Part shown: in pieces, positions 10,030 to 26,300 of the stretch
How positions within the stretch are numbered: the first letter of the stretch is position 1
How the letters are laid out: the number at the start of each line of letters is the position of its first letter
Assembly (NCBI GenBank): GCA_020436085.1
Contig: JAGQYM010000037.1
Coordinates: 1 to 45,738 of the forward strand
Origin: Cyclobacteriaceae bacterium
GTDB taxonomy: Bacteria > Bacteroidota > Bacteroidia > Cytophagales > Cyclobacteriaceae
Reading direction: 5' to 3'
Length of the DNA: 45,738 nucleotides
Program-made: the position numbers and the translations under genes
Notes under the pieces: model-generated
Seen by the model: only the letters and a program-made list of their open reading frames with translations
Told to the model about the DNA's origin: nothing
Databases searched by the model: none

Positions 10030-10423
10030 CTACTAATTCGTTAGCATAAAGCATACTAGGAGGGATGCCCGTGATTGCCTTGAATTGCCTGCTAAATGAA
10101 TGAATGTCCCGGTAGCCTAAAACTTGCGACACCTCACTGACGGACTTGTCTCTCAGCAAAGACTTTGAGAGTTTGATCTTTTCGCAAATGAAATATTTCT
10201 GAGGTGTAATTTTGTACACTTCTTTAAAGCAGCGTATCAAATGAAACTTTGATAAGGCGACTGCCTCAGCTAACTTTTCAAGATCAAATTTTGAATGAAG
10301 AGACCCGTCAAGATAAGCCCTGGCCATTTCGGCACGATTTAATATTTCTTTTTTTGTGCTCAGTCTTGATCTTTTGATGCAATCCAGTTGAGTGTTCTCC
10401 AATGACATAATTATCCGGAACAT
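10013..10423 (-). CDS. Short AraC-family transcription regulator (DNA-binding domain only)
   Basis: This 136-residue protein consists almost only of the two helix-turn-helix AraC DNA-binding domain, about residues 40-130. The first helix pair includes DLEKLAEAVALSKFHLIRCFK and the second includes SVSEVSQVLGYRDIHSFSRQFK, followed by GIPPSMLYAN. No ligand-binding or cupin domain is present, so it may respond to a partner or act constitutively. Start is ATG at 10423, with an alternative ATG at 10408. It is divergent from the pirin gene across a 159-nt region and could regulate it (inference). The 3' ends of this gene and the amidohydrolase overlap by 17 nt. Confidence 0.88.
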   Translation of the reverse strand: MFRIIMSLENTQLDCIKRSRLSTKKEILNRAEMARAYLDGSLHSKFDLEKLAEAVALSKFHLIRCFKEVYKITPQKYFICEKIKLSKSLLRDKSVSEVSQVLGYRDIHSFSRQFKAITGIPPSMLYANELVVKMTS

Positions 10424-10582
10424 TATTAATCCGGCATAATTTTATCAAAGGCGTTTGCTGTTGATAGTATAAATCGGACAGGACGTAGATAGATGTCGAA
10501 TTAGATCATTGAAGATTAATTTAGTTCCCTTAAGTTGGGTGATGAATGAGATTTAGCTTTTAAAATATTGTAAATTGATTTT

Positions 10583-11455
10583 ATGATTAATAAGCTGGTT
10601 GTTGAGGAACGGGCAAGTGATATCGGTAATTTTTTGGTTGGGAGACTCCTTCCATTTCGCCAAAAAAGACAAGTCGGACCATTCACTTTTATCGATCACA
10701 TGGGGCCAGCAACTATTGGTCCTGGAAAGTACATGGATGTAGATCAGCATCCTCATATCGGTCTTTCAACTCTAACGTATTTGTTTGAAGGGCAAATTGA
10801 ACACAAGGACAGTACGGGTGCGTTGCAAATAATTCGGCCTGGTGATGTTGGGTTTATGACTTCAGGGTCGGGTGTGACTCACACTGAGAGGACTCCATCA
10901 CAATTGCGCGATAGCAATGAGACCGTAATGCATGGGTATCAAATCTGGGTGGCTCTACCAAAAGACGTGGAGGAATCTGACCCGCAGTTTCAATATATAC
11001 CTTTCGACAAATTGCCTAGATGGAACCAAGGTGATCTTGAGTTGACGTTAGTTGCAGGGCGGGCTTTTGGAAAGGAATCACCGCTTCAGGTTTACTCGCC
11101 ATTATTCATGATGGATTTATATTCACCGGTTGAGCATGATCTGGATTTGCACGGCCATTTTGAGGGAGAGATTGCCTTTGTGGTGGCAAAGGGAGAGGTG
11201 AGTGATGGAACTGATGAAATAGGTCAGGGGCAGATGCTGATTTCCAAATCAGAAGATCAATGTAAAATCAAACTCGCTGCAGGCACAAGACTGATGATTT
11301 TTGGTGGGCAACCATTGCCTGAGCCGCGCTATTTATACTGGAATTTTGTTTCGTCAAGCAAAGAAAGATTGGAAAAGGCCAAGCAAGATTGGCGGGAGAA
11401 GAAATTTCCGAAAGTTCCAGGAGACAATACCTACGTGCCGTTGCCCCAGTTTTGA
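10583..11455 (+). CDS. Pirin-family bicupin protein
   Basis: This 290-residue protein has the pirin fold: two cupin domains, the N-terminal one (about 20-125) carrying the metal site. The ligands H56, H58, H100 and E102 are all present (motifs DQHPHIG and THTER), matching the family pattern. Several bacterial pirins are quercetinases or redox-responsive regulators, so the exact role is open. Translation starts at ATG 10583. Upstream, TTG at 10535-10537 and TAGCTTTT at 10554-10561 give a poor promoter match with a 16-nt spacer. The stop codon is 1 nt from the end of the convergent C45 gene. Neighbourhood gives no clear substrate. Confidence 0.92.
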   Translation: MINKLVVEERASDIGNFLVGRLLPFRQKRQVGPFTFIDHMGPATIGPGKYMDVDQHPHIGLSTLTYLFEGQIEHKDSTGALQIIRPGDVGFMTSGSGVTHTERTPSQLRDSNETVMHGYQIWVALPKDVEESDPQFQYIPFDKLPRWNQGDLELTLVAGRAFGKESPLQVYSPLFMMDLYSPVEHDLDLHGHFEGEIAFVVAKGEVSDGTDEIGQGQMLISKSEDQCKIKLAAGTRLMIFGGQPLPEPRYLYWNFVSSSKERLEKAKQDWREKKFPKVPGDNTYVPLPQF

Positions 11456-11456
11456 A

Positions 11457-12446
11457 TTAGTACACGAGCCCTTTGCGGGCACTCGTCATCATTGGCACAA
11501 TTCGATCTTCCGTAAAATGATCAAATGACTGGATAATTTGGTTATCAGGCCATAGTACCTCAGCTTCCTTTTTTTCAAGCCTATATATTATAGTGTATAA
11601 AGTCCCAAAGGACTTCTCAAAGTTTGTGTTGTATAAAGGGGGGTGAAGAAACCGCTTGAGCATCGTTGTTTCTGTCTCATACGGAGACGACACCATCTCA
11701 TCCAGAAATTTTTTTCGTTCGATAGTCCCGGTGAGAGAAGCATAATCACCCCACTCCACTTCCACCTGGTGATTGGTGGCAACCGGTGAAGTAACTACTA
11801 CGGGTGGTCTGTCAGGTGAAAGATAGAGGGTCGCGAAGTTTCCGCTGGTATCTATTAAAGTCACATTGTAGGCCATGTGTACCGGTACTCTGCTGAGTAT
11901 ATTAATTCCCTCCTCTACGTTGGTTGCAGTCTCAAGAATGTAACGAATGATAATGGGAATACCGAAGCCTTCGCCAACCACTTTGCGCCCGCCAAAAGTT
12001 AACGAGGCCGCCAGTCCACTTGCATTCATGCCATCAAGCAAGCCCCATGTGCAGTCACTCACGCCAATCACAGGTTGTAGCCATTTCGTGCTAAGCATTG
12101 TGCCCTCAAACATTTTGAAACTATAATCATAATTTCGAATGAGCGAAGTGCTTCCTTTTGTCCACGCTACCTGCGAACAGCCGGACATATAAGCTGGCGG
12201 GGAATACATGCTGAGAAATCGCCCTTCCAGATCTCCGCCACCAGCGAGTTCAACAAGTTGTTCGTACAGAGGCAACAACTCCGGCATATGATTTTTTAAC
12301 TCGGAGTATGAAGTGAGGTAACCCTTTCGGGCCATGTACCCTTCAGAGAGAAACCAGTTGCGGTAGTGTGGCCATGTTCGGTCGAACAGTGCTTTCCATT
12401 TTTCTCCTGGAGACGCTTCCTCAACACAACTGAACGAGATCAACAT
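11457..12446 (-). CDS. C45/AAT-family Ntn acyltransferase or amidase
   Basis: This 329-residue protein resembles the acyl-CoA:6-aminopenicillanate acyltransferase group (peptidase family C45), Ntn enzymes that mature by self-cleavage and then transfer or hydrolyse acyl groups on amines. The likely cleavage site is Gly89/Cys90 in YMSGCSQVAW, making Cys90 the new N-terminal nucleophile. The following LIRNYDYSF (102-110) is the family pattern, as are GFGIPIIIRYILE and the ATNH segment further on. The start at 12446 is 4 nt after the stop of the ATP-grasp gene and an in-frame stop lies just upstream, so it is the last gene of the minus-strand operon. No secretion signal is convincing. Substrate is unknown; an amide made by the adjacent ligase is the natural candidate (inference). 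Confidence 0.85.
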   Translation of the reverse strand: MLISFSCVEEASPGEKWKALFDRTWPHYRNWFLSEGYMARKGYLTSYSELKNHMPELLPLYEQLVELAGGGDLEGRFLSMYSPPAYMSGCSQVAWTKGSTSLIRNYDYSFKMFEGTMLSTKWLQPVIGVSDCTWGLLDGMNASGLAASLTFGGRKVVGEGFGIPIIIRYILETATNVEEGINILSRVPVHMAYNVTLIDTSGNFATLYLSPDRPPVVVTSPVATNHQVEVEWGDYASLTGTIERKKFLDEMVSSPYETETTMLKRFLHPPLYNTNFEKSFGTLYTIIYRLEKKEAEVLWPDNQIIQSFDHFTEDRIVPMMTSARKGLVY

Positions 12447-12450
12447 GCGA

Positions 12451-14040
12451 TTACATCATTTTGAACCCACCAATCTCTGCTACTTCAGCACGAGGTGCTT
12501 TCACTACGGAAAATGGTTCCGATCGATATAGATTTTTGATTGCGTTGATCCATGCAACAGCGCGAGGTTTTAGTTTGAAGTCATCCGTCATCAAGCGACC
12601 GCGCATAACTAAAATACCCATGTCTGCCCCTTCATAGAAATAATCGTTGCTTCTGCTGATGCGAAGGAAGAACGCCTCATTCTCTTTCTCTACAGCTCTT
12701 CTGTGAGTATCCATTCGTGAGAACTTAATCGTATCATCGGCATTCATAATATAGATGCCCGAGCGTGGTGCCTGGGTAATGATACGCACATCCTTCTCGG
12801 TATACTTGATCACCAGTTGCCCCCATGAGTCAATGTTCTCTGGTTTGAACCAACGGCCGTTGATCGAGTTCACGCTGAGCTTGTAGGGTTGATTCATCCA
12901 CTCCAACATATGGAAAAGGAACAGCGGCATATCTGATAAAGCAAACACCGCATGATTAGTAATTGAGCTGGCTCCGGTGATTCGCGGGTTTAGTTCCCCC
13001 AGGTACAACTCTCCGTTATCCTGATCAATAAGGAAGTCAAGTTCAAAATATCCTTTGTATCCTTCTTTTCTAAGCTGATCTCCGAAGAGCTGAGTGTATT
13101 TTCTTGCCTTCTTCCTAATTGACGGAGTAAATGCACCTGCATAGATTTCGTTTCCACACCAACCACCTTTGTAGGGGGTGAGTTCTTTGAAGCCAACAAG
13201 TTCTGTCATTAGCGGAGCTACGATGGTGCCATGTTGAGTGACACAAGCTTCTATAGCTGAGCCACGGCAATTAATGCGCTTCATGATCTTCACTTCCTTC
13301 TCTGCCACGATTTCATCTGCGTATCTTTCCCATTCTTTTTCATTTGCAACAAAGAACGTGGTATGCCCTGAGTCACCAAAAGGAGTTTGAATAACAAGAT
13401 CAGTTCCTAATTTTTTCTTACTTACGTCCAAAAGGTGTTTGTAGCTCTTGACTTTTGACAACACGTAAGGCACGCACGGAACACCGGCCTTCTCTGCAAT
13501 CCGGTTGGTGTTCACTTTGTTGTCCATATAGTTCCGCATCTTGGCAGACGGGAAACAAACTTCAAGTCCATTTTGCCTTGCCAGTTTTTCCGTTTTCTCA
13601 TCGAACATTAAAAAGAGCGCCTTTCCTTTGCCTCCTCTGCTTTTTATGTAGTCTACTACTTCTTTATGTTCCAGTAGGTAATTGTTGATGTCTTCTATGC
13701 TTTGAAATTCTTCGTGTGGCAGTTCTTCCTTTGGAGAAAAGACATTTGGATGAAGTCCATCAAAGCACTCGATGTAGCAAATGAATTTGAACCCTTTGAT
13801 CCACTCGTCAGCACCCAGTAAGTTGAAGTTGGTAGCACTGATAAAATAGATTGGAGTTTCATTTCTATAAAAAAATCTGCGGATATCGGATATGCCGTTG
13901 AGAACTTCACCACGCTTACTCACTTTACGCGAAGTTGTTTTGCGTGCGGAAGACTTAGCGGCCTTTTGCTTTTTTACTTTTGTGGCAGTTTTTTTTGCTG
14001 CCTTGACTTTTTTGGGTCGTGTTGCTTTTTTCTTTTTCAT
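12451..14040 (-). CDS. ATP-grasp carboxylate-amine ligase with lysine-rich N-terminal tail
   Basis: This 529-residue protein is an ATP-grasp enzyme, a class that activates a carboxylate as acyl phosphate and joins it to an amine or thiol. Residues about 130-360 hold the fold: NKVNTNRIAEKAGVPCVPY, then DLVIQTPFGDSGHTT (nucleotide-binding strand and loop), MKRINCRGSAIEACV, and the metal-binding ELDFLID and GELNPR (about 348-353). Automatic pipelines may call it biotin carboxylase, but nothing here points to biotin. The first 44 residues are almost only Lys, Ala, Thr, Arg and Ser, like a histone H1-type tail; no usable start codon lies between the tail and the fold, so it appears genuine. It is 24 nt after the permease stop and 4 nt before the C45 gene. 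Confidence 0.85.
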   Translation of the reverse strand: MKKKKATRPKKVKAAKKTATKVKKQKAAKSSARKTTSRKVSKRGEVLNGISDIRRFFYRNETPIYFISATNFNLLGADEWIKGFKFICYIECFDGLHPNVFSPKEELPHEEFQSIEDINNYLLEHKEVVDYIKSRGGKGKALFLMFDEKTEKLARQNGLEVCFPSAKMRNYMDNKVNTNRIAEKAGVPCVPYVLSKVKSYKHLLDVSKKKLGTDLVIQTPFGDSGHTTFFVANEKEWERYADEIVAEKEVKIMKRINCRGSAIEACVTQHGTIVAPLMTELVGFKELTPYKGGWCGNEIYAGAFTPSIRKKARKYTQLFGDQLRKEGYKGYFELDFLIDQDNGELYLGELNPRITGASSITNHAVFALSDMPLFLFHMLEWMNQPYKLSVNSINGRWFKPENIDSWGQLVIKYTEKDVRIITQAPRSGIYIMNADDTIKFSRMDTHRRAVEKENEAFFLRISRSNDYFYEGADMGILVMRGRLMTDDFKLKPRAVAWINAIKNLYRSEPFSVVKAPRAEVAEIGGFKMM

Positions 14041-14064
14041 AGCCCCATACTCAGATTTAAAACT

Positions 14065-15504
14065 CTATTTATAGTTTTCTAATATAAGATATTCTCTTTC
14101 CTCTTCGGGTGTTGTATTTCTGCTTTTTTTGGACCTCACCCAAAAGACAAGACCGAGCAGCGCGAGTGTTATTAAAATTACCCACTCTAGTGGCCATCGC
14201 AGTGCCGCAGGACTTCCAGGTATCGTGATGGCCATCAAAATTAAAATGGAACCTGCCACCGCGATATAACCAGTTGCTTTTCCTCCAGGCACCTTGTAAG
14301 GGCGGTGTTGGTCAGGAAATTTGCTTCTCAGTTTTAGAAAAGAAAATGACACACCAAGAAATGCTGCAGCGATACAACATGATCCCACATCTACGAATGC
14401 AATCATAGCACCGCGTCCTAAAAATGAAGCAACCAGAGTGACGATGCCGCTGAAAAGAACAGCGCGGTAGGGAGTCTTATAAATAGAATGAGTTTTACCA
14501 AGAGCCGGAGCGATAATTCTCCCTCTTCCCATCGCAAAAAGTACTCTTGATCCAGCAAGAAAGAATCCGTTCCAACTGGTAAGCAGCCCAATGATGATCG
14601 CGAAAAGAATCGCATTGACCACGAATTCGGAGCCAAACGTAATTCTAAAAGCCTCAGCGGTCAATAACTCTGCATGAAGTAAAGATGGCCATTCGCCAAT
14701 CATTGATGTGCTGATGATGAGTACTATGTAAAAACTGACTGCTGCAATAATTGAAATCAAGATAAGAATTCCGATTGTGCGATAAGAGACCGACTCTTTT
14801 GCTTCTTCTGCTCCCTGCGGTATGGTGTCGAATCCAACCAGCCAAAATGGAACAGTTGCAAAAACACCAATGATGCCGGCAATCACACCGTTTTCACTTT
14901 CTTGAAAAAAGTAAGGGCGTAAATTTTTGAATTCCCCTGCCGAGAGGCCAGCTATCGCTACACCAATGACAATAACTATAAACGCGATGGTGAGATAAAC
15001 TTGAAATCGCATGGAACTCTGAACGCCAACGTAGTTGATCCATGTGATGAGGGAAACGAAAACCAAAGCCAGTAGTAAGTGACTTCCATAAATTACATCG
15101 CCACCAATGCTATACAACGGCCATCTGTCAATGCTGGGGAAGAGATAACTCATGATCTTGCCAACAGAAATTGCCTCAAAAGCCGAGACTGACAGATAAC
15201 CGAATGCTAAGAACCAACCGACAAGAAATGATTTAGAACTGCCATAAGCTTTGTAAGCATAAGCTACTTCACCACCCGACACCGGAAGCATAGCTGTGAC
15301 TTCTGCATAACAAAAGCCAATGAATAGCATGAGCACACCTCCGATACCAAAAGCGATAGCTGAGCCTATTGGTCCTGCAGTTCTCAGCCAAGGCCCCATG
15401 GCAGTCACCCACCCAACTCCTATCATCGCTCCGAACGCGAGACAGAAGAATCCAATCTTACTTATGTCTTTTTTTAGAGAAGCCCGTTCAGAAGAACCAC
15501 TCAT
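14065..15504 (-). CDS. APC-superfamily amino acid permease
   Basis: This protein is an integral-membrane amino-acid transporter of the APC superfamily with about 12 predicted helices. The first helix holds the substrate-binding loop GAMIGVGW, and SGGEVAYAYKAYG follows helix 2, both typical. I start at ATG 15504 (479 residues), 4 nt after the decarboxylase stop and preceded by AGGTGG; an upstream GTG at 15549 would add 15 residues and overlap the decarboxylase. APC carriers next to amino-acid decarboxylases are often amino acid/amine exchangers (AdiC, CadB, PotE), so exchange of a basic amino acid for its amine is the simplest inference. Uptake only is also possible. Confidence 0.9.
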   Translation of the reverse strand: MSGSSERASLKKDISKIGFFCLAFGAMIGVGWVTAMGPWLRTAGPIGSAIAFGIGGVLMLFIGFCYAEVTAMLPVSGGEVAYAYKAYGSSKSFLVGWFLAFGYLSVSAFEAISVGKIMSYLFPSIDRWPLYSIGGDVIYGSHLLLALVFVSLITWINYVGVQSSMRFQVYLTIAFIVIVIGVAIAGLSAGEFKNLRPYFFQESENGVIAGIIGVFATVPFWLVGFDTIPQGAEEAKESVSYRTIGILILISIIAAVSFYIVLIISTSMIGEWPSLLHAELLTAEAFRITFGSEFVVNAILFAIIIGLLTSWNGFFLAGSRVLFAMGRGRIIAPALGKTHSIYKTPYRAVLFSGIVTLVASFLGRGAMIAFVDVGSCCIAAAFLGVSFSFLKLRSKFPDQHRPYKVPGGKATGYIAVAGSILILMAITIPGSPAALRWPLEWVILITLALLGLVFWVRSKKSRNTTPEEEREYLILENYK

Positions 15505-15508
15505 CCAC

Positions 15509-18322
15509 CTATGATTTAGAGCTGGTGGATTTTCCCTTTCGCGTGCCACCGAGCCCAGCCATAGCAGCCGCTGCGCCCATCAAAGCAGTTCCTGATTGGT
15601 GACGATTGAGTGCAGAGTCTGTAAATATGCGAAGTCCAAGCTCAGGGCGATAGCCATGAATCTCTTTCACATCCAGGGCCTGCAAAAAATCCAGAATCTC
15701 TTTCGTCATCACCTGTCCTGGCACTAATACCGGAAAACCAGGCGGATAAGGAATCACAAAAGCTGCCGACACTAATTCTCTTCCTGAATCCATTAATGCC
15801 TGACATGATGTTAATTTCACGTATTCACATTTGTTTTCCTGATACGCGAGGAAATAAGCCTCTCTCATTCGGCCTCCAGGTATGCCCGCCACGGCCCTAA
15901 ATGAATCGTGGAAATGGCTGAAGTCGGGGAGAGGAGGAGCTTGGTCCGTTAGTGAATATATTTTGTCTTGGAGAATTCTATTCTCTTCAGGATTGAGGGA
16001 GTCAAATTGAATATCGATTTGCTCTGCAATTTTTAATAAGGCGCTGATGAGATAGCTGACAGAACTTCGGGTTGTACCAATGTTTGTCATGAAGAGCACA
16101 GAATTTCTTGACGTCTTATTGATCTGTATGTGAAACTGATCCATCAGATACTTGTTCTTGAAAGTATCTCCGTCTACTCCCGTGTTTCCGATGTGGAGGT
16201 TGATCTTAGTGGGATCAAGAACGAACTCATCATTCTCCCATGCGTTTTCCAATCGCTGCCAACCATGCTCCGGATGATAATACTCTGAAAGGCCCGACTG
16301 CCGATACTGATCTGGAATAATATCTTTGATGGTAAGTACTTTGAAATATTTTCTCAGCTTAGGATGATCGTTGATTTTTGCTCGAAGCAACATTGCCATT
16401 TCAATACTCTTCTCGACTAGCTCATAACCCTCGAATGAAACTTGCCTGCGACCAACATCGAGCGAGGCGAGGATTTGATAGTTCGCGGAAGTTGACGTGT
16501 GCGTCATGTAAGCTTCGTGAAAGGAGTTCTCCACTTTTCTTTCAAATTCCTCATCATAGATGTGAATCATCGATCCCTGACGAAGTGAAGTAAGTGTCTT
16601 GTGCGTGCTTTGTGTGGAGTAAACGCGAATCTTTACTAACTCTGGGTTCGGCATCCTGGGTACTTCTTGTCCACTTGCTTTGATATCTGCCAGATGTTTT
16701 TTGTATTGCTCTTTGTACTCCTCAGTTTTATACTTCTTGCAAAGTTTGTTGGCAACAAACATTGCTGTGCGTTGCCTGAAGGTGTGTGTGAAAGCAGCAA
16801 AACCAAACCAAGCTTCATCCCAAAGGAAGATCATGTCGGGTTTGATGGCCAGTACTTCTTCCATCACACGCTCTACGTTGTAAACAAGACCGTCAAAAGT
16901 GCAGTTGGTCAGCAGCAACATCTTTACGTGATCGAGCCTTCCAGCTTCTTTCAATACAAGTAACCTCTCTCTTATTTCAGAAAGGGGAACAGCGCCATAC
17001 ATTGAATATTTTTGAAGTGGGTACGAGTCTAGATACGTCACATACGCTCCGGACAATACCATACCATAATGATGGGATTTGTGACAGTCTCTATCAATCA
17101 ATACTACATCACCTGGCTCCACCAGCGCCTGCAGCACAATTTTATTTGAGGTAGAGGTTCCATTGGTAGCGAAGAATGTTCTCTTGGAGCCGAACGACTT
17201 CGCGGCCAACTCTTGCGCTTTCTTCAGAGGACCAGTCGGTTGGAGGAGAGAATCCAATCCGCCAGTGGTTGAAGAAGTTTCTGCAAGAAAAAGATTTCTG
17301 CCGTAAAACTCTCCAAAGTCATCCACCCAATTTGATTTGAAAATTGAGTTACCACGTGAGATGGGCATAGCGTGAAAAACTCCCGTTGGCTTCTGACTAT
17401 ATTCTTTTAGCGCAGTGTAAAATGGCGTAGCATAGCGGTCTTTAATTCCGCGAATGATACTGAGATGAAGTTCCTGTGCATCTTCTTTTCTGTAGAATAT
17501 TCTTTGAAATATTTTTAGAGCACTGTCAGGTAAACTGTTGACAGCATTGTCGGTCACATAATATATATCCAACTCTGGCCGCAACTGTCGAATGGCTTCT
17601 CCTAATAATATGCCAAGTTCATACTCTGGATTCTCCTCGTAGTCATATTTGAGAACATCTTTAACAAAGGGATTGAGTATTCCTTTCGTATTCTTCGACT
17701 TGAACTGGATCTCGTAGCGAATAACACATGCTTGAATGTTAGGATTTGCAACCAAAGCAATCAATGAATCTTGAAATGATTTGGCGTAAACCAATTGATA
17801 GATGAAGTGTTCTTTTGGATCTCTGACCTCAGCTAGTTTCTTAGAAATAACCTGCTCTTCACGAGAGGTGAGCTTGTCCACAAACAGAACTTCAAAATAT
17901 CTTCTCTTCGATTTCTGATCAGGTACACTTTTTTGTTCTTTTCCTTTCAGTAAATGGGCAAGCGAAAACGATTCGGGATCCTGCCGGTAGTCTTCACTCA
18001 CAAGTAGTCGCAAAACCTCTTTTATGGAATTACGCAGAATCTGAAATTCATCATTTTTCAGAAAGTCATTCAGCACATTCAAAAGATCTAAGCCTGGAAA
18101 TGCATAGTACTGTTCAATGTCACGTAGCGTTTTGAATGCACGGTTCATCTGGATTTTACCTTCATCCTGTTCAATCTTATTTTTTTTGCGGGCTAGCTGA
18201 TAGGCTTGCAGCTTGAGGTCCGTCCACAACTCCGTACGGAGTTGACTTATATTATAATAGTGTCCCTCATGATGATGAGCGCTTTTTCCGTTTGAATTGC
18301 TCTTTCCGTTAGTCATAGCCAT
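15509..18322 (-). CDS. Long Orn/Lys/Arg-type PLP-dependent decarboxylase
   Basis: This 937-residue protein contains the fold-type I major domain of Orn/Lys/Arg decarboxylases at roughly 330-700. Visible landmarks are TFFATNGTSTSNKIV (cofactor phosphate loop), DRDCHKSHHYG, FLWDEAWFGFA (Asp to the PLP pyridine nitrogen) and the Schiff-base Lys575 in STQSTHKTLTSL. A C-terminal domain with AAFVIPYPPGFPVLVPG matches the family. It is much longer than AdiA or CadA (about 710-760): about 300 residues precede the core and a Lys/Ser-rich tail ends it. The substrate could be arginine, lysine or ornithine and cannot be settled by eye; some relatives carry out oxidative decarboxylation. It lies 12 nt after the VOC gene and directly precedes the permease. 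Confidence 0.9.
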   Translation of the reverse strand: MAMTNGKSNSNGKSAHHHEGHYYNISQLRTELWTDLKLQAYQLARKKNKIEQDEGKIQMNRAFKTLRDIEQYYAFPGLDLLNVLNDFLKNDEFQILRNSIKEVLRLLVSEDYRQDPESFSLAHLLKGKEQKSVPDQKSKRRYFEVLFVDKLTSREEQVISKKLAEVRDPKEHFIYQLVYAKSFQDSLIALVANPNIQACVIRYEIQFKSKNTKGILNPFVKDVLKYDYEENPEYELGILLGEAIRQLRPELDIYYVTDNAVNSLPDSALKIFQRIFYRKEDAQELHLSIIRGIKDRYATPFYTALKEYSQKPTGVFHAMPISRGNSIFKSNWVDDFGEFYGRNLFLAETSSTTGGLDSLLQPTGPLKKAQELAAKSFGSKRTFFATNGTSTSNKIVLQALVEPGDVVLIDRDCHKSHHYGMVLSGAYVTYLDSYPLQKYSMYGAVPLSEIRERLLVLKEAGRLDHVKMLLLTNCTFDGLVYNVERVMEEVLAIKPDMIFLWDEAWFGFAAFTHTFRQRTAMFVANKLCKKYKTEEYKEQYKKHLADIKASGQEVPRMPNPELVKIRVYSTQSTHKTLTSLRQGSMIHIYDEEFERKVENSFHEAYMTHTSTSANYQILASLDVGRRQVSFEGYELVEKSIEMAMLLRAKINDHPKLRKYFKVLTIKDIIPDQYRQSGLSEYYHPEHGWQRLENAWENDEFVLDPTKINLHIGNTGVDGDTFKNKYLMDQFHIQINKTSRNSVLFMTNIGTTRSSVSYLISALLKIAEQIDIQFDSLNPEENRILQDKIYSLTDQAPPLPDFSHFHDSFRAVAGIPGGRMREAYFLAYQENKCEYVKLTSCQALMDSGRELVSAAFVIPYPPGFPVLVPGQVMTKEILDFLQALDVKEIHGYRPELGLRIFTDSALNRHQSGTALMGAAAAMAGLGGTRKGKSTSSKS

Positions 18323-18334
18323 CGCAGATCATTT

Positions 18335-18745
18335 TTAATTCTTGGAATGTAAAGCCAGGCGATTTCCCTCCGTGTCCATAAATAGGGCGAAGTAACCGAC
18401 TGCATCGTTGATCAAAGTTTTTCCCATGATGACACGTCCTCCCGCAGGTTCCACACGCGATAACACCACGTCAAGGTCTTTACCTCCATTCAGATATAAT
18501 AAAGGACCGGTTGTGTTTGGCGTGCACCCTTCACCCGTTACTACCGCGCCACCTATTCCATTCTTTGCCGGAAAGAAAGCCATCGAGTACCCGTTAATTT
18601 CTGTGGAGTCCATTTCAATAGCGTAGATCTGACTATAAAATGAAACAGCTCGTTCAAAATTGTAAGCTGGTATTTCAAACCAGTTGACAAAGTGTTTCAG
18701 ATTAAGGGGCTTTTCTTTTTTCGCATGCTTCACAGACGTTTTCAT
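18335..18745 (-). CDS. VOC-family (glyoxalase/bleomycin-resistance fold) protein
   Basis: This 136-residue protein is a single VOC-superfamily unit. It shows FVNWFEIPAYNFERAVSFYSQ near the start (about 19-39) and DTEGNRLAL near the end, the usual edges of the two beta-alpha-beta-beta-beta modules. A Lys-rich stretch of about 16 residues precedes the fold. Members bind a divalent metal and act as lyases, isomerases, dioxygenases or binding proteins, so no reaction can be assigned. It lies between the amidase (28-nt gap) and the decarboxylase (12-nt gap). Detoxifying a reactive aldehyde made by the pathway is one possibility, but this is inference. Confidence 0.82.
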   Translation of the reverse strand: MKTSVKHAKKEKPLNLKHFVNWFEIPAYNFERAVSFYSQIYAIEMDSTEINGYSMAFFPAKNGIGGAVVTGEGCTPNTTGPLLYLNGGKDLDVVLSRVEPAGGRVIMGKTLINDAVGYFALFMDTEGNRLALHSKN

Positions 18746-18773
18746 GTTCGCTGACTTTATGTTAACTCATTTT

Positions 18774-19703
18774 CTATATCTTCAATTTATTCCACCAGGG
18801 TGTAGCCACAGTTTGTTCCTCGTTGTTTGACTGCAGCACTTCAGTGATTTGTTCAAACCTTGTCGGCTTATGTAGTTTTCCAAGCGTATTCAGGTAAGGA
18901 AGTTGTGCTCCTTGTTGATAGATTTCAAATTTGATATTTCTATCTCTAAAGCTTTTGAGTGGTTGACCTAACCGAAGCACTCCCATTTCACGGCTTCTCT
19001 TCACCCGATCCATATCAATCTCGATCGGAATTAGTTCCTCTCCAGTACTGGCCTGATGCAATACCCTTCCATCGGGGCCGCAGATAATCGATCGGCCGGT
19101 GCCACCATCACCAAGTCCGTTGATATCGAAAATGAAACATTGGTTGGTGGCGGCTGTAGCCTGGACGATCGAAAGCTCTATGTCGCGGTCGATAGTTGCC
19201 GTCAGTGTTGGATGCAGTATCACTTCTACTCCGTTGACGGCAAGTGTTCTTGAAGTTTCAGGGAACCACATGTCGTAGCAAATCGTGAGGCCGAACCTCC
19301 CGATTTTGGGCACATCCCAAATTAAAAACTCATCACCTCCGGTTACACCTACTTCGTACGGGTAAAACGGAAACATTTTATTATAACGGCCTACAACTTC
19401 TCCCTGCGGGTTGATTACCGTTGCCGTGTTGTAGATTTTATCTTCTTTCTTTTGGAACATGGTTCCAGGCACCAACCAGATGCCATGTTTTTTTGCCAGT
19501 TCACAAAACTCATTCTCCACGTCATTGGGAAAATCCATGGCGTGATAGGTGAGTGGTCCAAACGGGCACAATTCGCTGAACATCACCATTTGTACCCATG
19601 GATAGACTGACATCATCACGTCAACCTTGTGTTTCATGATTGGCACATTACTGTGGCTGGCCGAAACGTGCATCTGAATCCCCGCAATCGAAAATGGCGT
19701 CAT
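18774..19703 (-). CDS. Carbon-nitrogen hydrolase (nitrilase superfamily) amidase
   Basis: This 309-residue cytoplasmic enzyme hydrolyses a non-peptide C-N bond of an amide or carbamoyl compound. The catalytic set of the superfamily is complete: Glu44 in MFSELCPFG, Lys109 in YNKMFPFYPYE, Glu117 in the same block and the nucleophile Cys142 in TICYDMWFPE. The K..P..P.E spacing is reminiscent of aliphatic amidases. Related enzymes act on N-carbamoylputrescine, 5-aminovaleramide or 4-guanidinobutyramide, all products of basic amino-acid breakdown, which fits the neighbouring decarboxylase and aminotransferase; which one applies is unknown. It starts 1 nt after the aminotransferase stop, so translation is probably coupled. 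Confidence 0.9.
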   Translation of the reverse strand: MTPFSIAGIQMHVSASHSNVPIMKHKVDVMMSVYPWVQMVMFSELCPFGPLTYHAMDFPNDVENEFCELAKKHGIWLVPGTMFQKKEDKIYNTATVINPQGEVVGRYNKMFPFYPYEVGVTGGDEFLIWDVPKIGRFGLTICYDMWFPETSRTLAVNGVEVILHPTLTATIDRDIELSIVQATAATNQCFIFDINGLGDGGTGRSIICGPDGRVLHQASTGEELIPIEIDMDRVKRSREMGVLRLGQPLKSFRDRNIKFEIYQQGAQLPYLNTLGKLHKPTRFEQITEVLQSNNEEQTVATPWWNKLKI

Positions 19704-19704
19704 C

Positions 19705-21039
19705 CTAGTTCGAAATTTTTATAAGTTCTTCTTCAATAATATCAAGCCCACGATTCAGTAGCTCCTCTGAGATGACCAACGGGCTTAGAATGCGGATCAC
19801 GTTTTTATAAGTACCTGCACTTAATAATATAACACCTCGGTCAAGGCATGCTTTGGTAAGCCTGGTCACGGTGTCTTCATCGGGTTGTGATGGATCACCG
19901 TTCTTCACGAATTCGATGGCCTGCATTGCGCCCAACCCACGCACGTCACCTATTGCCGAACATTGCTTCTTCAACTTTTGAAAACGTTCGTTTACGATCT
20001 GGCTCACTTTGCTTGCTTTCGCGTTGAGGTCGATCTCCTCCATATACTTAATAGTGGCAAGCGAAGCGGCACAGCAAACCGGATTTCCAAGGTAGGTTCC
20101 ACCAATTGAGCCTACTGCAGCTGCGTCCATCACTTCCTGTTTTCCAATGACTGCACCTATCGGCATTCCCGATCCCATTGATTTGGCCCAGGTGGATATG
20201 TCAGGTGCAACACCGTAATGTTCATGCGCAGCCCACTTTCCGGTACGACAGAATCCGCTTTGCACTTCATCGAAGATCAACATGATTCCATGCTTGTCGC
20301 AAAACTCACGAAGCCCTTGAATATATTTTTTTGGAGCCACGTTGAATCCTCCTTCCCCCTGAACCAACTCCAAAATAATAGCGGCCACATCGTTCACATC
20401 TACCATGGAATGAGTCGCATCCTCCATGCGAGCTAGTTCCTGTGCCGAAAACTCATCTTCCGTCATTCCCTGGCCATTGTGGTAATAATTTGGAAAGGGT
20501 AAGCGATAGACCTCTGGCGCGAAAGGTCCGCAGTTGGTTTTGTAGTTGATTTTGGAAGTGAGGGTCATTGCCATCATCGATCGGCCATGGAAGGCCTCTG
20601 TGAAGCAGATTACAGCTGACCTCTTGGTCGCCTGACGGGCGATTTTTATGGCGTTTTCTACGGATTCTGCACCTGTATTGGTGAGCATCACCTTAGTCTT
20701 TTTGCCGTGGGGAATCAGCTCTGCCAATTTCTCTGCGAGTTCCAGATAGGGCTCATAGGTGGAGATATTAAAGCAAGCGTGAATAAGTTTTGCTGCCTGA
20801 TCCTGTATGGCCTTTACCACCGGCTCAGGACAATGCCCAGCATTGAGCACACCGATACCGCCTCCAAAGTCTATCAGTTGATTTCCATCTGCATCTAAAA
20901 TGGTTCCATCCTTGGCACTTACCGCTGTTGAGGGAACGAACACACTCACACCGTTAGCCACCACGGCCTTTCTTCTTTCGATGAGTGCCTGCGTTTTTTT
21001 GAATGATAATGTTTTTGATTCCGTTGTCGCGCTTTCCAT
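19705..21039 (-). CDS. Class III omega-aminotransferase, GabT/DavT-like
   Basis: This 444-residue protein is a PLP-dependent class III aminotransferase similar to 4-aminobutyrate/5-aminovalerate aminotransferases. Features in order: DADGNQLIDFGGGIGVLNAGH, TNTGAESVENAIKIAR (phosphate loop), AFHGRSMMAMTLT, FDEVQSGFCRTGK (Asp to the pyridine ring) and Lys286 in STWAKSMGSG. The reaction is transfer of a terminal amino group to an oxoacid, giving a semialdehyde. It is the first gene of the seven-gene operon and follows a plausible promoter. Assignment to GABA, aminovalerate, putrescine or ornithine is not possible from motifs alone; gabT is used for similarity only. Confidence 0.92.
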   Translation of the reverse strand: MESATTESKTLSFKKTQALIERRKAVVANGVSVFVPSTAVSAKDGTILDADGNQLIDFGGGIGVLNAGHCPEPVVKAIQDQAAKLIHACFNISTYEPYLELAEKLAELIPHGKKTKVMLTNTGAESVENAIKIARQATKRSAVICFTEAFHGRSMMAMTLTSKINYKTNCGPFAPEVYRLPFPNYYHNGQGMTEDEFSAQELARMEDATHSMVDVNDVAAIILELVQGEGGFNVAPKKYIQGLREFCDKHGIMLIFDEVQSGFCRTGKWAAHEHYGVAPDISTWAKSMGSGMPIGAVIGKQEVMDAAAVGSIGGTYLGNPVCCAASLATIKYMEEIDLNAKASKVSQIVNERFQKLKKQCSAIGDVRGLGAMQAIEFVKNGDPSQPDEDTVTRLTKACLDRGVILLSAGTYKNVIRILSPLVISEELLNRGLDIIEEELIKISN

Positions 21040-21090
21040 GTGCTCTGATTATTTCTAAAGTGGTTTAAGTTGATATCACACAATTGTACT

Positions 21091-21121
21091 CAAAATTATC
21101 ACGAATCTTAGCGGCACCAGA
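21091..21121 (-). promoter_or_regulatory. Bacteroidota-type promoter of the seven-gene operon
   Basis: Read on the minus strand: TCTG (21121-21118, 3 of 4 bases of the -33 TTTG), 19 nt, then TAATTTTG (21098-21091), a full match to TAnnTTTG. Transcription would start near 21084, leaving a leader of about 45 nt before the aminotransferase ATG. Confidence 0.55.
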
Positions 21122-21123
21122 TG

Positions 21124-21240
21124 TCACCGATTAATCGCTGCTTGAATTTGTTTTTCACCGACCTGCTTCTTGTCCTTCGCCACGAATGCACTCAGGGTAG
21201 TTGAGCCAACTGGAAGAGTCGGTTCATAATATACTAACAT
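21124..21240 (-). CDS. Possible 38-residue small protein or gene remnant
   Basis: An ATG at 21240 opens 38 codons ending in TGA at 21126-21124. The peptide begins MLVYYEPTLPVGSTT and ends in a charged, soluble stretch (AKDKKQVGEKQIQAAINR) with ordinary codon choice. It lies between the membrane-protein gene and the operon promoter, so it would not be an operon leader peptide. No family is recognised. It could be the decayed 3' end of an older gene. Confidence 0.2.
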   Translation of the reverse strand: MLVYYEPTLPVGSTTLSAFVAKDKKQVGEKQIQAAINR

Positions 21241-21251
21241 TTATGGCTAAA

Positions 21252-21268
21252 AGCCACGAAAAATGGCT
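21252..21268 (-). terminator. Weak hairpin after the small membrane-protein gene
   Basis: A 5-bp stem (21264-21268 with 21252-21256) with a 7-nt loop is followed, on the minus strand, by TTT. It lies 12 nt beyond the stop of the gene ending at 21281. The stem is short, so this is tentative. Confidence 0.3.
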
Positions 21269-21280
21269 ATTTTGGAGGTT

Positions 21281-21856
21281 TTAGGTGATTAGCCATGCGT
21301 CCCAGTTCACAATTATAGAGACGATCACTGTAGCCACCCATGCAAGAACGATGACCTTGTGCACCCATTCGCTGATGCCTTGGAGAAACGCGGCAAAACC
21401 GAGCACAGCAATTATGACAATTTGTAGTGCGACTCCTTCAATCCCATTGCCTGCAAATGCAAAGTTTTCTACGGCTGAAAGAAATGCGAAGCACACAATG
21501 ACCGCGAAGAATTTTTTGTAGTTCGCTAAGTAGAATTCTTTGTAGTCGAGTTCGATATCATCATGACCATGTGCTGGAAAGAGTAACCTGGCGAGAATGA
21601 AAAGATTAATCGGATACAGACTGATGAATAGAAATGTGGGAAGTCTCCAGGTGTCAATTGTCCGCAGGTCATATATGTTCCACCATTCCTGAATATGCAA
21701 AAAGAAGATAATCACCATCCACAGCGTGTGAGGCCAATAGAGTTTTACACGCTTCCAATGATGAATGATGTCAGCAATTCCCGTTACGATCTGCGTGATA
21801 CCCAATCCTAAAATGATGGAAATGAGAACACTTACATATTCAAATGGACTGAGCAT
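21281..21856 (-). CDS. Integral membrane protein of unknown function
   Basis: This 191-residue protein is almost entirely hydrophobic, with about six membrane helices: near residues 8-28, 43-60, 72-92, 113-135, 140-160 and 167-188. A conserved-looking loop, HIQEWWNIYDLRTIDTW, lies between helices 2 and 3, and a charged loop (HGHDDIELDYKEFY) between 3 and 4. I do not recognise a named family or any catalytic motif. It is divergent from actA and is followed by the decay region before the aminotransferase operon. A perfect 10-bp inverted repeat lies just ahead of its start codon and may control it. Confidence 0.75.
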   Translation of the reverse strand: MLSPFEYVSVLISIILGLGITQIVTGIADIIHHWKRVKLYWPHTLWMVIIFFLHIQEWWNIYDLRTIDTWRLPTFLFISLYPINLFILARLLFPAHGHDDIELDYKEFYLANYKKFFAVIVCFAFLSAVENFAFAGNGIEGVALQIVIIAVLGFAAFLQGISEWVHKVIVLAWVATVIVSIIVNWDAWLIT

Positions 21857-22067: not shown

Positions 22068-23294
22068 ATGACGCACCAAATCTCTGGTTTATTAAAGAAT
22101 CTCGCCTCAGCCCTTCTCATAGTTCTAAGTTTTACATCGTTTGCACAGGAAATTTCTTCAGACCCCGCTGTAGTTGCTGATGGGGCAGCGCTATTTGATG
22201 CCAACTGTAAGGCTTGTCACCGGGTGAAGCAAAAACTTATAGGTCCTGCGCTGGCTGGCGTATATGACCGCGCTCCATCTCTGGATTGGATCAAGAATTT
22301 CGTTCGGAATTCATCCAAAGTCATTGCCAGTGGAGACGAGTATGCAAACAAAATCTATGAAGAGAATGGCAAGACATTAATGACGGCTTTCACTTCCTTC
22401 AGCGATGATCAGATTATGTCGATCATGGCCTACGTGAAAGCGGAAGCGGAGAAACCTGACGAAGCACCTGCGGCAACAGCTGGGGGTGGAGATGGTGCCG
22501 GACAGCCCTCATTACCAACGACTTACCTTAATGCCATTCTTATCGGAATGGTTATAATCCTGGTTCTGCTACTCGTTATTCTTGGATTGATCATCAATGC
22601 GCTCAAACGTTATCTGGATCAAAAGGACCTGAGCGAAGAGGACAGAGAAGTAGTTCATTCGCCATTTACCCTGGGTACAGTTATGCGAAGCCCCGGGTTC
22701 GTTTTTGTAGTGGTGTTCATTGTAGCATGCGTTTCATTCAAAACAATAATCGATGGACTGTATTCGATAGGGGTGCAGCAAGGCTATCAGCCAAAGCAGC
22801 CCATCGCATTCTCACACAAGGTGCATGCGGGTCAATACGAGATTGAGTGTAAATATTGTCATACCGGTGCAATGAAAGGACGCAGCGCCAATATCCCATC
22901 TCCTAACATCTGTATGAATTGCCATACACAAATAAGGAAGGGAACCATCACCGGTGAATCGGAAATTGCAAAGATCGTGGCCGCTGTTGAGAATAACAGG
23001 CCAATTGAGTGGGTAAGAATCCACAATCTGCCAGACTTGGCATATTTCAATCACTCGCAGCACGTGAATGTGGGGGGCATTGAATGTCAGACCTGCCATG
23101 GTCCAATTCAGGAGATGGATGTTGTTAAGCAATATTCATTGCTTACCATGGGCTGGTGTATTGATTGCCACAGAAAGACTGATGTGAATACAAAAGGCAA
23201 TGCCTACTACGACAACCTACTGGAACTCCACAATAATAAGGCAATGAAAGTGGAGGATATTGGTGGGCTTGAGTGTGCAAAGTGTCACTATTAA
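22068..23294 (+). CDS. actA: Alternative complex III subunit ActA, multiheme cytochrome c with extra N-terminal monoheme domain
   Basis: This 408-residue protein is the cytochrome subunit of the quinol-oxidising alternative complex III, facing the periplasm. After a signal peptide (1-26, cut after FA) comes a class I cytochrome c domain with CKACH at 47-51 and probable axial Met105, then an Ala/Gly/Pro linker (about 130-150), a helix (about 155-177), a cytoplasmic loop, a second helix (about 209-232) and the pentaheme domain with CKYCH, CMNCH, CQTCH, CIDCH and CAKCH. That makes six heme sites, one more than the pentaheme core of the classic subunit. It opens the act-cox operon behind a good promoter; actB follows after 36 nt. 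The extra domain may carry electrons to the oxidase (inference). Confidence 0.93.
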   Translation: MTHQISGLLKNLASALLIVLSFTSFAQEISSDPAVVADGAALFDANCKACHRVKQKLIGPALAGVYDRAPSLDWIKNFVRNSSKVIASGDEYANKIYEENGKTLMTAFTSFSDDQIMSIMAYVKAEAEKPDEAPAATAGGGDGAGQPSLPTTYLNAILIGMVIILVLLLVILGLIINALKRYLDQKDLSEEDREVVHSPFTLGTVMRSPGFVFVVVFIVACVSFKTIIDGLYSIGVQQGYQPKQPIAFSHKVHAGQYEIECKYCHTGAMKGRSANIPSPNICMNCHTQIRKGTITGESEIAKIVAAVENNRPIEWVRIHNLPDLAYFNHSQHVNVGGIECQTCHGPIQEMDVVKQYSLLTMGWCIDCHRKTDVNTKGNAYYDNLLELHNNKAMKVEDIGGLECAKCHY

Positions 23295-23330
23295 TAAAGA
23301 TACAATTCGATTTTTGGACTTAGATAAAGT

Positions 23331-26300
23331 ATGAACGATACAAAAAAGACATACTGGAAAGGTATTCAGCAGCTGAAAAACGATCCAGCATTTGTTAAGA
23401 ATGCGGATAAAGAGTTCGTTGACCTGGGTGTTGAAGATGATCCTCGCCATTCGCGCAGGGACTTTCTTAAAATGATGGGCTTTAGCGTGGCTGCGGCTTC
23501 ATTGGCAGCATGCGAGGCACCGGTAAGAAAGGCGATACCTTATGTTAACAAGCCAGTTGATGTTGATCCCAGTATACCTAACTATTATGCGTCTACCTAC
23601 GTCAATGGTGGTGACTATTGTAGCATAGTAGTAAAGACCCGCGAAGGTCGCCCCATTAAAATTGAGGGGAACTCACTCTCAAAAGTGAGTATGGGAGGTA
23701 CCAGTGCTCAGGTTGAAGCTTCGGTACTTTCGCTTTACGATAATTACAGGCTAAGGGGACCAAAGGCAGGCGCTGATAGCGCAAGCTGGGAAGATGTAGA
23801 TAAAGCAATAACTGGAAAGTTAGGGGAGATTTCAGCAGCAGGTGGTCAGATCAGAATTGTAAGCAATACGATACTAAGCCCAAGTACAAAGGCAGCGATT
23901 GGCCGTTTCACAGCTAAGTACCCGACAACGGTTCACGTGCAATATGATCCGGTGTCGTACACCGGTATCACAAAAGCCAATGAGGCAAGTTTTGGCAAGG
24001 CGATGATTCCGTCTTATGATTTTTCAAAAGCCAGAACCATTGTGAGTGTTGGTGCTGATTTTTTGGGTACGTGGTTAGCCCCTATTGAGTTTACAAAACA
24101 ATACAGCGAGAATAGAAAAGTTAGTGAGAAGGTCACTACCATGTCTCGCCATTATCAGTTTGAATCCAACTTGTCGTTGACAGGAGCAAACGCTGACTAT
24201 CGCACCATGATCCGTCCTTCTCAGCAAGGTCTGGTGGTGGCACAGCTATATAATATAATTGCAGGAAAGGCGGGACGCGCCTCTGTTTCTGCTGGGATCG
24301 ATAAAGTTGCCAACCTCGAAAAAGCCGCTAATGAACTTTGGGCTAGCCGTGGACAAGCACTTGTGGTTTGTGGATCAAACGACAAAGATGTTCAGGTGTT
24401 GGTAAACGGAATCAATGATATGTTGGGCAGCTATGGTACTACCATACATGCCAACAAAACGGTAAACTTCAGACAAGGCAACGATGAGGCCATGGCAGCA
24501 TTGATTGCTGATGTGGAGGCGAACAAAGTAGCTGGTGTGATTTTCTACAACTGTAACCCAGTGTTTGATCACCCGATGGGAGCTAAGCTTGAGGCAGCAC
24601 TCAAAAATGTTTCTCTTTCTGTTTCCACCTCTTCTACCGAAGATGAGACGGCTTCAGCATCGGGGTATAAAGCTCCTGATCATCATTATCTGGAGTCTTG
24701 GAATGACTTCGAACCAAAGACGAACTCATTCAGTCTTTCACAACCGGCCATTACTCCAATTTTCAAAACTCGTCAGGCACAGGAGAGCTTGATGACCTGG
24801 GCTGGAGAGCCGACTGAATATTTTGCTTTCTTAAAGGAAAACTGGAGAAACTGGTACTATGGTACTGCAGGCGGTGGATTGAGCTTCCAGTCTTTCTGGG
24901 ATAAGTGTTTGTATGATGGTGTCCTTGATCTTAGCAATGGCGAAGCGGAAACATTGACGTTCAGTGGAGATGTTGACGCTGCTGCATCGGCAATAAGTAC
25001 GAATTACAAATCAAATAATACTGGATTTGAGCTCGCGATCTATGAAAGCTATGCCATCGGAAACGGGTCACAAGCAAACAACCCTTTACTGCAAGAGTTG
25101 CCTGATCCAATTACCAAGGCGGTTTGGGATCACTATGCAACAATCTCTCAAAAAGATGCTGCTGAACTGGGTGTAGACAATGATGCCGAGGGGCGCACTC
25201 AGTATATTAACATAACAGCAGGCGGTAAGACGATAAAAGTACCTGCGTTGGTACAACCTGGTCAAGCACCGGGCACTATAGGTATCGCTATCGGTTATGG
25301 TCGCACCAAGGTGGGTGTAGTAGCTGCCAACATGGGAGTGAATATTTACCCATTGGTGACAATGGTTAACGGTTCGCTCAATTTTAATGTGACTTCTGGA
25401 GTGACCGTTGCTAAAACGGATGAAGCCTATCAAATCGCTCAAACACAGATTCATCAAACCTACATGGGCAGGAGTTCCGTGATTCAGGAGTCGGTTCTGA
25501 GTGAGTTCAAAAAAGATCCTCATGCAGGCCGTGAGTTTCCGAAAATCACGAAGTGGGACGAAAAGGTTGATCCGGGAACAGTGTCGCTTTGGAAAGGTCA
25601 TGACTACCTTGACCATCACTGGGGAATGGCAATCGACCTGAATTCATGTACTGGATGTGGGGCTTGTATTGTTGCATGTAATGTTGAAAACAATGTTGCT
25701 CTGGTAGGTAAGCAAGAAGTGATCAACAGACGTGAAATGCACTGGCTGCGTATCGACCGCTACTACAGCAGCGATGCAACAGACATCAGTAACTATGAAC
25801 AGTTGGAGCATGCTGCTGAGAATCCTGAGGTAGTGTTCCAGCCGATGTTGTGTCAGCACTGTAACAACGCACCTTGTGAAACGGTATGTCCCGTGGCAGC
25901 GACTACCCACAGCACCGAGGGTCTCAATCAAATGACTTATAACCGTTGTATTGGTACACGTTATTGTGCCAACAACTGTCCTTATAAAGTAAGACGTTTC
26001 AACTGGTTTAAGTATCACGACAATCAGCAGTTCTATCAGGCAAACCCTGCTATGAACACTGACCTTGGTCGTATGGTGCTCAATCCTGATGTAACAGTTC
26101 GTTCACGTGGTGTAATGGAAAAATGTTCATTCTGTGTACAGCGTATTCAGGCAGGTAAGCTGAATGCGAAACGCGAGAAAAGGACTGTAAAAGATGGAGA
26201 AATCGTAACAGCCTGCCAGGCTTCATGTACGTCAGGAGCAATTCTCTTTGGTGACTTGAATGACGAAAACAGCCAGATCAGCAAGTTGTTGCAAGTAAAG

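Follow-up and report, generated by a model that had tools for sequence, protein, structure and literature searches.

A conserved operon of a Cyclobacteriaceae bacterium with a probable role in making or using GABA by way of an amide-bonded intermediate

What does a cell make when a decarboxylase, an ATP-dependent ligase, putative amide-cleaving enzymes and an aminotransferase are encoded side by side? The question is raised by a seven-gene operon on the minus strand of a 45,738-nucleotide stretch of DNA from a Cyclobacteriaceae bacterium (GenBank assembly GCA_020436085.1, contig JAGQYM010000037.1), hereafter the window. A first-pass annotation, made from the sequence alone, described a unit that could import a basic amino acid, turn it into an amine, join and cleave an amide, and transaminate the product. 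We find that the gene set is a real conserved module, and that the operon probably makes or uses gamma-aminobutyric acid (GABA) through an amide-bonded intermediate. Tentatively, we read it as a variant of the GABA shunt to which an amide side loop is added: GABA would be made from an acidic amino acid (probably glutamate), amidated, and released again for the aminotransferase. The genes and the short names used here are, in operon order from first to last:

GABT, 19705..21039, minus strand: class III aminotransferase, GABA-transaminase group, encoded by the leading gene of the operon; PF00202 (Aminotran_3), 405 bits
CNH, 18774..19703, minus strand: carbon-nitrogen hydrolase of an unnamed branch; PF00795 (CN_hydrolase), 106 bits
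VOC, 18335..18745, minus strand: small VOC-like protein; PF00903 at E 0.18
DC, 15509..18322, minus strand: long pyridoxal phosphate (PLP) decarboxylase of the Orn/Lys/Arg fold, Rv2531c group; PF01276 (OKR_DC_1), 259 bits
APC, 14065..15504, minus strand: amino acid permease of the APC superfamily; PF13520 (AA_permease_2), 141 bits
ATPG, 12451..14040, minus strand: ATP-grasp ligase; NCBIfam PRK06524/NF005096 'biotin carboxylase', Pfam ATP-grasp_3 at 28 bits
C45, 11457..12446, minus strand: proenzyme of an Ntn-fold acyltransferase/amidohydrolase; Pfam AAT/C45, 105 bits

Conservation of the gene set

The first-pass annotation staked its idea of one pathway on related genomes keeping these genes together, and they clearly do. 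Relatives of ATPG were sought irrespective of their neighbours: a scan of the collection with an ATPG alignment gave at least 552 among 584 stretches, and the gene counts concern the best 80 of these, a choice that favours near relatives. For DC, CNH, GABT, VOC and a dehydrogenase, only loci with DNA reaching far enough enter the count. DC was present at all 67 such loci, CNH at 62 of 64 and GABT at 58 of 60. VOC sat in the operon at 49 of 64, a fiftieth match (L073) being left out because it is 27% identical, far off and on the opposite strand. A succinate-semialdehyde-type dehydrogenase lay downstream at 52 of 70 loci; the gene is not in the window and is absent from its clade, which made it invisible to the first-pass annotation. 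C45 was matched at 59 of the 80 loci, just downstream on the same strand at 58 and upstream on the opposite strand at one (L095). APC was matched at eight, between DC and ATPG at five and a few kilobases downstream at three Algoriphagus loci; the permease is an addition of the window's clade.

At the 21 loci without C45, the dehydrogenase comes immediately after ATPG in 14 cases and with one small gene between in three; in the other four it is not there. A search of the whole genome G464 gave no C45 match at E 1e-6. The direct junctions and this genome led us to reject C45 as an essential step. GABT, CNH, DC and ATPG thus form the constant core.

Chance adjacency is rejected by these counts, by the co-occurrence of DC with ATPG and by the unconserved flanks of the operon. 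ATPG occurs in 7 of 395 genomes sampled from the phylum and in 2 of 98 from the family (the window's own included in both), so the gene set is sporadic. An independent search placed DC in 8 of 390 phylum genomes: the seven that bear ATPG, and G286, where the contig breaks off at DC and VOC, CNH and GABT adjoin it. This sharing of genomes corresponds to a Fisher p of 1.5e-12, with the window's own genome excluded, relatedness ignored and the 390 genomes assumed to sit within the 395. The genes flanking the operon are not kept: the pirin and amidohydrolase genes at 0 of 92 loci each, the AraC gene at 1 of 92 and the open reading frame (ORF) at 21281-21856 at 3 of 92. Pairwise distances of six operon genes are also correlated (Mantel r between 0.64 and 0.90, a level that none of 999 permutations reached in any of the 15 gene pairs), a correlation that shared organism history alone would also be able to give.

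In a tree of ATPG (94 rows, quick method), nine Pseudomonadota rows make up one side, rows labelled Gemmatimonadota, Balneolota, Calditrichota and Ignavibacteriota are mixed among those labelled Bacteroidota, and the Algoriphagus rows are separate from the window's Cyclobacteriaceae rows. The mixing suggests horizontal transfer but does not prove it, since GTDB puts Balneolota and Ignavibacteriota within Bacteroidota and the mixed rows are metagenome-assembled genomes.

Within the window, the gene arrangement first described is exact: seven complete ORFs with ATG starts and no internal stops, separated by 1, 28, 12, 4, 24 and 4 nucleotides (nt) in operon order. No open frame longer than 197 codons arose in 100 mononucleotide shuffles of the operon segment. 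For APC the ATG at 15504 was taken as the start, the mechanical ORF beginning at GTG 15549. Pfam and NCBIfam bear out six of the family labels; that of VOC is weak, its glyoxalase-superfamily match to PF00903 falling below cut-off. The plausible promoter announced before the first gene was not recovered: across 10400-21500, a scan for sigma-70 sites gave 20 where 18.2 were expected, with none upstream of GABT on the minus strand (21039-21500), the scan covering the sigma-70 type only. We infer a single transcript for the seven genes, purely from their spacing and conservation.

Several loci depart from this arrangement or extend it. Both Brumimicrobium loci carry two tandem C45 genes after ATPG (L062:11475-13957 and L074:11495-13876). 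In Rhizobium leguminosarum CB782 two ATPG-like genes stand in tandem (L104:14992-17644), with 52% and 43% identity to ATPG of the window; for the second, Pfam gave no family at E 2. Genes inserted between DC and ATPG (L059, L070) were uninformative, the one checked matching no Pfam family. An MscS-type mechanosensitive channel is encoded close downstream in L081 (13531-14400), L040, L079 and L090 (Pfam check for L081 only), a weak hint of an osmotic role. Around the operon of the window itself, a convergent pirin gene ends 1 nt from the end of C45, and two plus-strand ORFs at 22068-26438 carry, by eye, CxxCH haem and iron-sulphur cysteine motifs, presumably resembling the first genes of a cluster for alternative complex III.

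Sequence features of the enzymes

DC shows the features of the Orn/Lys/Arg decarboxylase family: OKR_DC_1 (259 bits) and OKR_DC_1_C (27 bits) domains, and the SxHK motif as STHK, with lysine K575. It lacks the family's acidic residue, N735 occupying the position of Glu526 of the Escherichia coli lysine decarboxylase LdcI in at least 99% of 76 DC sequences. Glu526 is the postulated lysine-binding residue of LdcI, by docking and an earlier proposal, in the available text of PMC5607190. Since N735 replaces it, the side chain of the DC substrate is likely not basic, and simple polyamine synthesis is unlikely; this residue comparison is evidence, not proof. A further residue, R739, is found in nearly all DC relatives, two rhizobial copies having Pro and Val instead. 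Residues 61-919 align at 788 bits to structure 9n0o, the 'probable amino acid decarboxylase' Rv2531c of the tuberculosis bacterium. The homology spans most of the length and the two proteins have the Asn at the Glu526 position in common; Rv2531c differs in having Ile where DC has R739. The activity of Rv2531c is described as not clarified in the available text of PMC12910592, and no substrate for the DC group, Rv2531c included, was found in the literature searched.

Among relatives of DC with no annotated ATPG nearby, aspT adjoins the decarboxylase gene in four of the six plasmid regions opened, from Phyllobacterium, Rhizobium T1473, Rhodobacter CZR27 and Ensifer (L118, L119, L120, L122). These homologues share N735 and R739 with DC, and the one AspT checked scores above the equivalog cut-off for an aspartate antiporter. 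The pair looks like an undescribed decarboxylase-antiporter couple of four alphaproteobacterial plasmids; no description of it was found in the literature searched, from which subscription papers were mostly outside.

GABT scores 501.2 bits against the GABA transaminase model TIGR00700, just below its cut-off of 506.65, and 251 bits against the putrescine aminotransferase model. Its best solved chains are GABA transaminases, and it has the GABA-transaminase framework, K286, R153 and R416 being shared by at least 99% of 64 sequences. The one downstream dehydrogenase checked (L089) matches succinate-semialdehyde dehydrogenases best, below the equivalog cut-offs, with no malonate-semialdehyde model among the best 25 matches listed. 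Taken as a set, the genes point to GABA consumption. Elsewhere in the window's own genome are two PF02784 genes, one a diaminopimelate decarboxylase and one SpeA-like far below cut-off, and two PF00282 genes that match no NCBIfam family at 1e-60, by which an ordinary glutamate decarboxylase is neither shown nor excluded.

ATPG reaches 780 bits against NF005096 (cut-off 684), the PRK06524 family named 'biotin carboxylase'. Its Pfam matches are ATP-grasp_3 and CPSase_L_D2 only, with no biotin-carboxylase C-terminal domain, and none of the seven genes encodes a biotin carrier or a carboxyltransferase. Biotin-dependent carboxylation is rejected on these two grounds, and the family name looks misleading, domains and context alike being unsupportive. 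ATPG would instead be a carboxylate-amine ligase, in which E349, N351 and R353 are invariant (36 sequences). Its structure model has a pLDDT of 70.5, and the 50 best fold matches listed are nearly all biotin-carboxylase folds with TM scores of about 0.34-0.46, too weak for choosing a substrate.

The two candidate amide-cleaving enzymes differ in how closely they match named families. All nine NCBIfam matches of CNH are far below cut-off (AguB 74 against 410, nitrilase 79 against 500). E44, K109 and C142, which we take to be the Glu-Lys-Cys triad of the superfamily, are conserved in at least 97% of 71 sequences, and CNH is likely an amidase. A route from arginine through agmatine and N-carbamoylputrescine to putrescine is rejected, as none of the seven genes encodes an agmatine deiminase and CNH lies so far below the AguB cut-off. 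C45 scores 154.8 bits against NF040521 (C45_proenzyme; cut-off 85). Its model (pLDDT 92) has isopenicillin N acyltransferase, 2x1c, as the top fold match (TM 0.70), and C90, the predicted Cys nucleophile, is invariant together with R104, N105, D107 and N225 (33 sequences). By sequence and model, C45 would thus belong to the C45 autoproteolytic acyltransferase/hydrolase family. Isopenicillin N acyltransferase acts on an aminoadipyl amide.

Gene sets on Pseudomonadota plasmids

Contexts in Pseudomonadota were taken from a plasmid collection, with 12 kb flanks. CNH-DC-ATPG-C45 occurs in Roseobacter ponti, with GabT and oligopeptide transporter genes nearby, and in Cupriavidus oxalaticus, followed by a DctA/GltP-type symporter gene. 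Plasmids of Shinella, Roseateles XES5 and Sinorhizobium RAC02 have ATPG-C45 and no DC within 12 kb. Their neighbours are genes for a permease and for agmatinase-type (an unlabelled ORF at this position in RAC02), 5-guanidino-2-oxopentanoate-decarboxylase-type and aldehyde dehydrogenase enzymes, and further D-amino acid dehydrogenase, ornithine-racemase-like and RidA genes, with CNH nearby on the opposite strand. On plasmid pBB1 of Cupriavidus necator N-1, genes for a thiamine-diphosphate enzyme, a PuuC-like aldehyde dehydrogenase (below cut-off) and an Opp-type transporter precede CNH-ATPG-C45.

Rhizobium and Sinorhizobium plasmids carry DC-ATPG-C45, with an Opp-type transporter in three. In a fourth, L011, DC is disrupted and C45 truncated, with insertion-sequence genes close by. 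Some 1 and 5 kb away from DC, on the opposite strand, L011 and L104 have glutamate-dehydrogenase-like genes that score below the equivalog cut-off. On a Rhizobium leguminosarum plasmid (L106:7246-14471), DC-ATPG-C45 adjoins nifHDKEN and is followed by genes for an Opp-type transporter, an amidase and a beta-lactamase-family hydrolase.

Candidate routes through GABA

In the GABA-shunt variant that we tentatively favour, DC would strip the alpha-carboxyl group from an acidic amino acid, most likely glutamate, to give GABA. ATPG would activate a carboxylate with ATP and link GABA by an amide bond to a partner, as a storage or carrier form, and CNH, aided or replaced by C45, would cleave the amide to GABA. 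GABT would then pass the amino group to 2-oxoglutarate, and a dehydrogenase, whose gene would sit elsewhere in the window's clade, would oxidise the resulting succinic semialdehyde to succinate. In that clade APC would import the amino acid or exchange it for the product. We infer all the substrates, the direction of the amide reactions and the roles of APC and VOC. The conservation of the module, its correlated divergence, the GABT group and the dehydrogenase scores of L089 argue for this route at the sequence level, as do N735 in place of Glu526, R739, aspT beside DC relatives and the glutamate-dehydrogenase-like genes of two rhizobial plasmids. The three plasmids with no DC nearby and with CNH, ATPG and C45 beside genes of arginine-to-GABA type also fit.

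Other observations weigh against it. A ligase and its own hydrolases in one operon would make a futile cycle unless the amide has a purpose, which the model does not name. R739 is not universal, Pro, Val and Ile standing in relatives. The aspT-paired decarboxylases, about 43-45% identical to DC, may have aspartate as their substrate, and the pairing itself is weakened in Rhizobium T1473, where aspD, the aspartate 4-decarboxylase gene that is the usual partner of aspT, follows aspT. In Roseateles XES5 the plasmid that bears ATPG also carries a DC relative at another place, and no annotated glutamate dehydrogenase lies near DC on the nif-bearing plasmid. When the window's own genome was searched for the dehydrogenase of the relatives, the best matches were just 28-30% identical.

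The chief rival, which we consider unlikely, would have ATPG block the side-chain amine of ornithine or a diamine, after which DC would decarboxylate the blocked amino acid. GABT and a dehydrogenase would lead to blocked GABA, CNH or C45 would unblock it, and GABT and the dehydrogenase would act again on free GABA. The logic resembles that of the Puu pathway. The block would prevent the amino aldehyde from cyclising, and a blocked side chain would account for the loss of Glu526. Shinella-type plasmids suit such a route: with no DC or GABT near ATPG, they have instead racemase-like (below cut-off), D-amino acid dehydrogenase, keto acid decarboxylase and aldehyde dehydrogenase genes, which would make the same net change of amino acid to acid, a fit at least as good as that of the favoured variant. 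The Sinorhizobium meliloti enzyme annotated like the Shinella 2-keto acid decarboxylase, an annotation match only, has a sevenfold higher activity with 5-amino-2-oxopentanoate in the available text of PMC7268258; this preference speaks for blocking, as does the PuuC-like gene, below cut-off though it is, in the C. necator cluster. However, the route leaves the aspT pairing of DC relatives and R739 unexplained, GABT matches GABA transaminase at 501 bits against 251 for putrescine aminotransferase, and none of the seven genes belongs to a PuuA, PuuB or PuuD type family in Pfam or NCBIfam.

The reading closest to the first-pass annotation, in which a basic amino acid is imported, decarboxylated to a polyamine, acylated and eventually set free again to serve polyamine or acid-stress needs, is improbable. 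The Orn/Lys/Arg decarboxylase domains of DC agree with it, ATP-grasp, CN-hydrolase and C45 enzymes suit amide chemistry, and a separate polyamine decarboxylase in the genome, with its two PF02784 genes, is not proven; but N735 stands where LdcI has E526, and just 5 of the 80 related loci have the permease inside the operon. With N735 and R739 also common to the aspT-paired homologues, the import of a basic amino acid to make an amine is doubtful; what stands of that annotation is one functional unit of decarboxylation, ATP-dependent ligation, amide cleavage and transamination. Quite improbable, too, is that ATPG joins the gamma-carboxyl group of glutamate to an amine, DC converts the product to a GABA amide, and CNH or C45 releases GABA and the amine. 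Butirosin side-chain synthesis has a similar carrier-bound decarboxylation step. Such a scheme would use each core gene once and in linear order, agrees with GABT, CNH, DC and ATPG being the most constant genes, and explains how C45 can be lost while CNH stays. Yet it would spend ATP on what free glutamate decarboxylation achieves, and on the plasmids searched (chromosomes were outside the search) Shinella, Sinorhizobium RAC02 and C. necator N-1 have ATPG, CNH and C45 and no DC. An aspartate version is highly improbable: DC would make beta-alanine, ATPG a beta-alanyl amide that C45 and CNH cleave, and GABT would be a beta-alanine transaminase. AspT is an aspartate antiporter, and Tan, a C45-type enzyme, cleaves beta-alanyl amides in insects; against this, GABT scores as a GABA transaminase, and the L089 dehydrogenase does best with succinate-semialdehyde models, malonate-semialdehyde being missing from its best 25 listed matches.

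Besides Rv2531c, three known systems resemble parts of the operon. The GABA shunt (glutamate decarboxylase, GabT and succinate-semialdehyde dehydrogenase) likewise combines a GABA-transaminase-type enzyme with a PLP decarboxylase, and 52 of 70 relatives add the dehydrogenase. The operon's decarboxylase, however, is of the Orn/Lys/Arg family and not PF00282; an ATP-grasp ligase, a CN-hydrolase and often C45 are added, and the window's clade has no dehydrogenase. The E. coli Puu pathway, which runs through gamma-glutamylputrescine, also places ATP-dependent amide ligation, amide hydrolysis and GABA-transaminase-type and aldehyde dehydrogenase steps around GABA, whereas neither a ligase of PuuA type nor a PuuB oxidase nor a hydrolase of PuuD type was found in the operon, which includes a decarboxylase. 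In the available text of PMC7268258, the rhizobial CATCH-N arginine transamination network ends, like our model, in GABA, succinic semialdehyde and succinate, and has keto acid decarboxylase and ureohydrolase annotations identical to those of genes beside the Shinella ATPG-C45 pair; the same text names no ATP-grasp, C45 or CN-hydrolase. In the literature searched, subscription papers being mostly outside it, we found no operon description for the ATP-grasp/C45/GABA set, for PRK06524/NF005096 or for the rhizobial set, in agreement with the first-pass remark that no described pathway with this exact set is known.

It is possible, though doubtful, that the operon represents a widespread and undescribed module, in which a new GABA conjugate is built by an ATP-grasp ligase and cleaved by amide hydrolases, and an enzyme of the Orn/Lys/Arg fold has turned into an acidic amino acid decarboxylase. 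ATPG has at least 552 relatives in one collection, the best 80 mostly have the set around them, and parts of it occur on Pseudomonadota plasmids. Naming the substrates of DC and ATPG could assign a pathway in many genomes and put right two annotations that mislead. Should the GABA conjugate exist, the place of DC-ATPG-C45 beside rhizobial nif genes raises the question of symbiosis, in which the conjugate could possibly be a metabolite.

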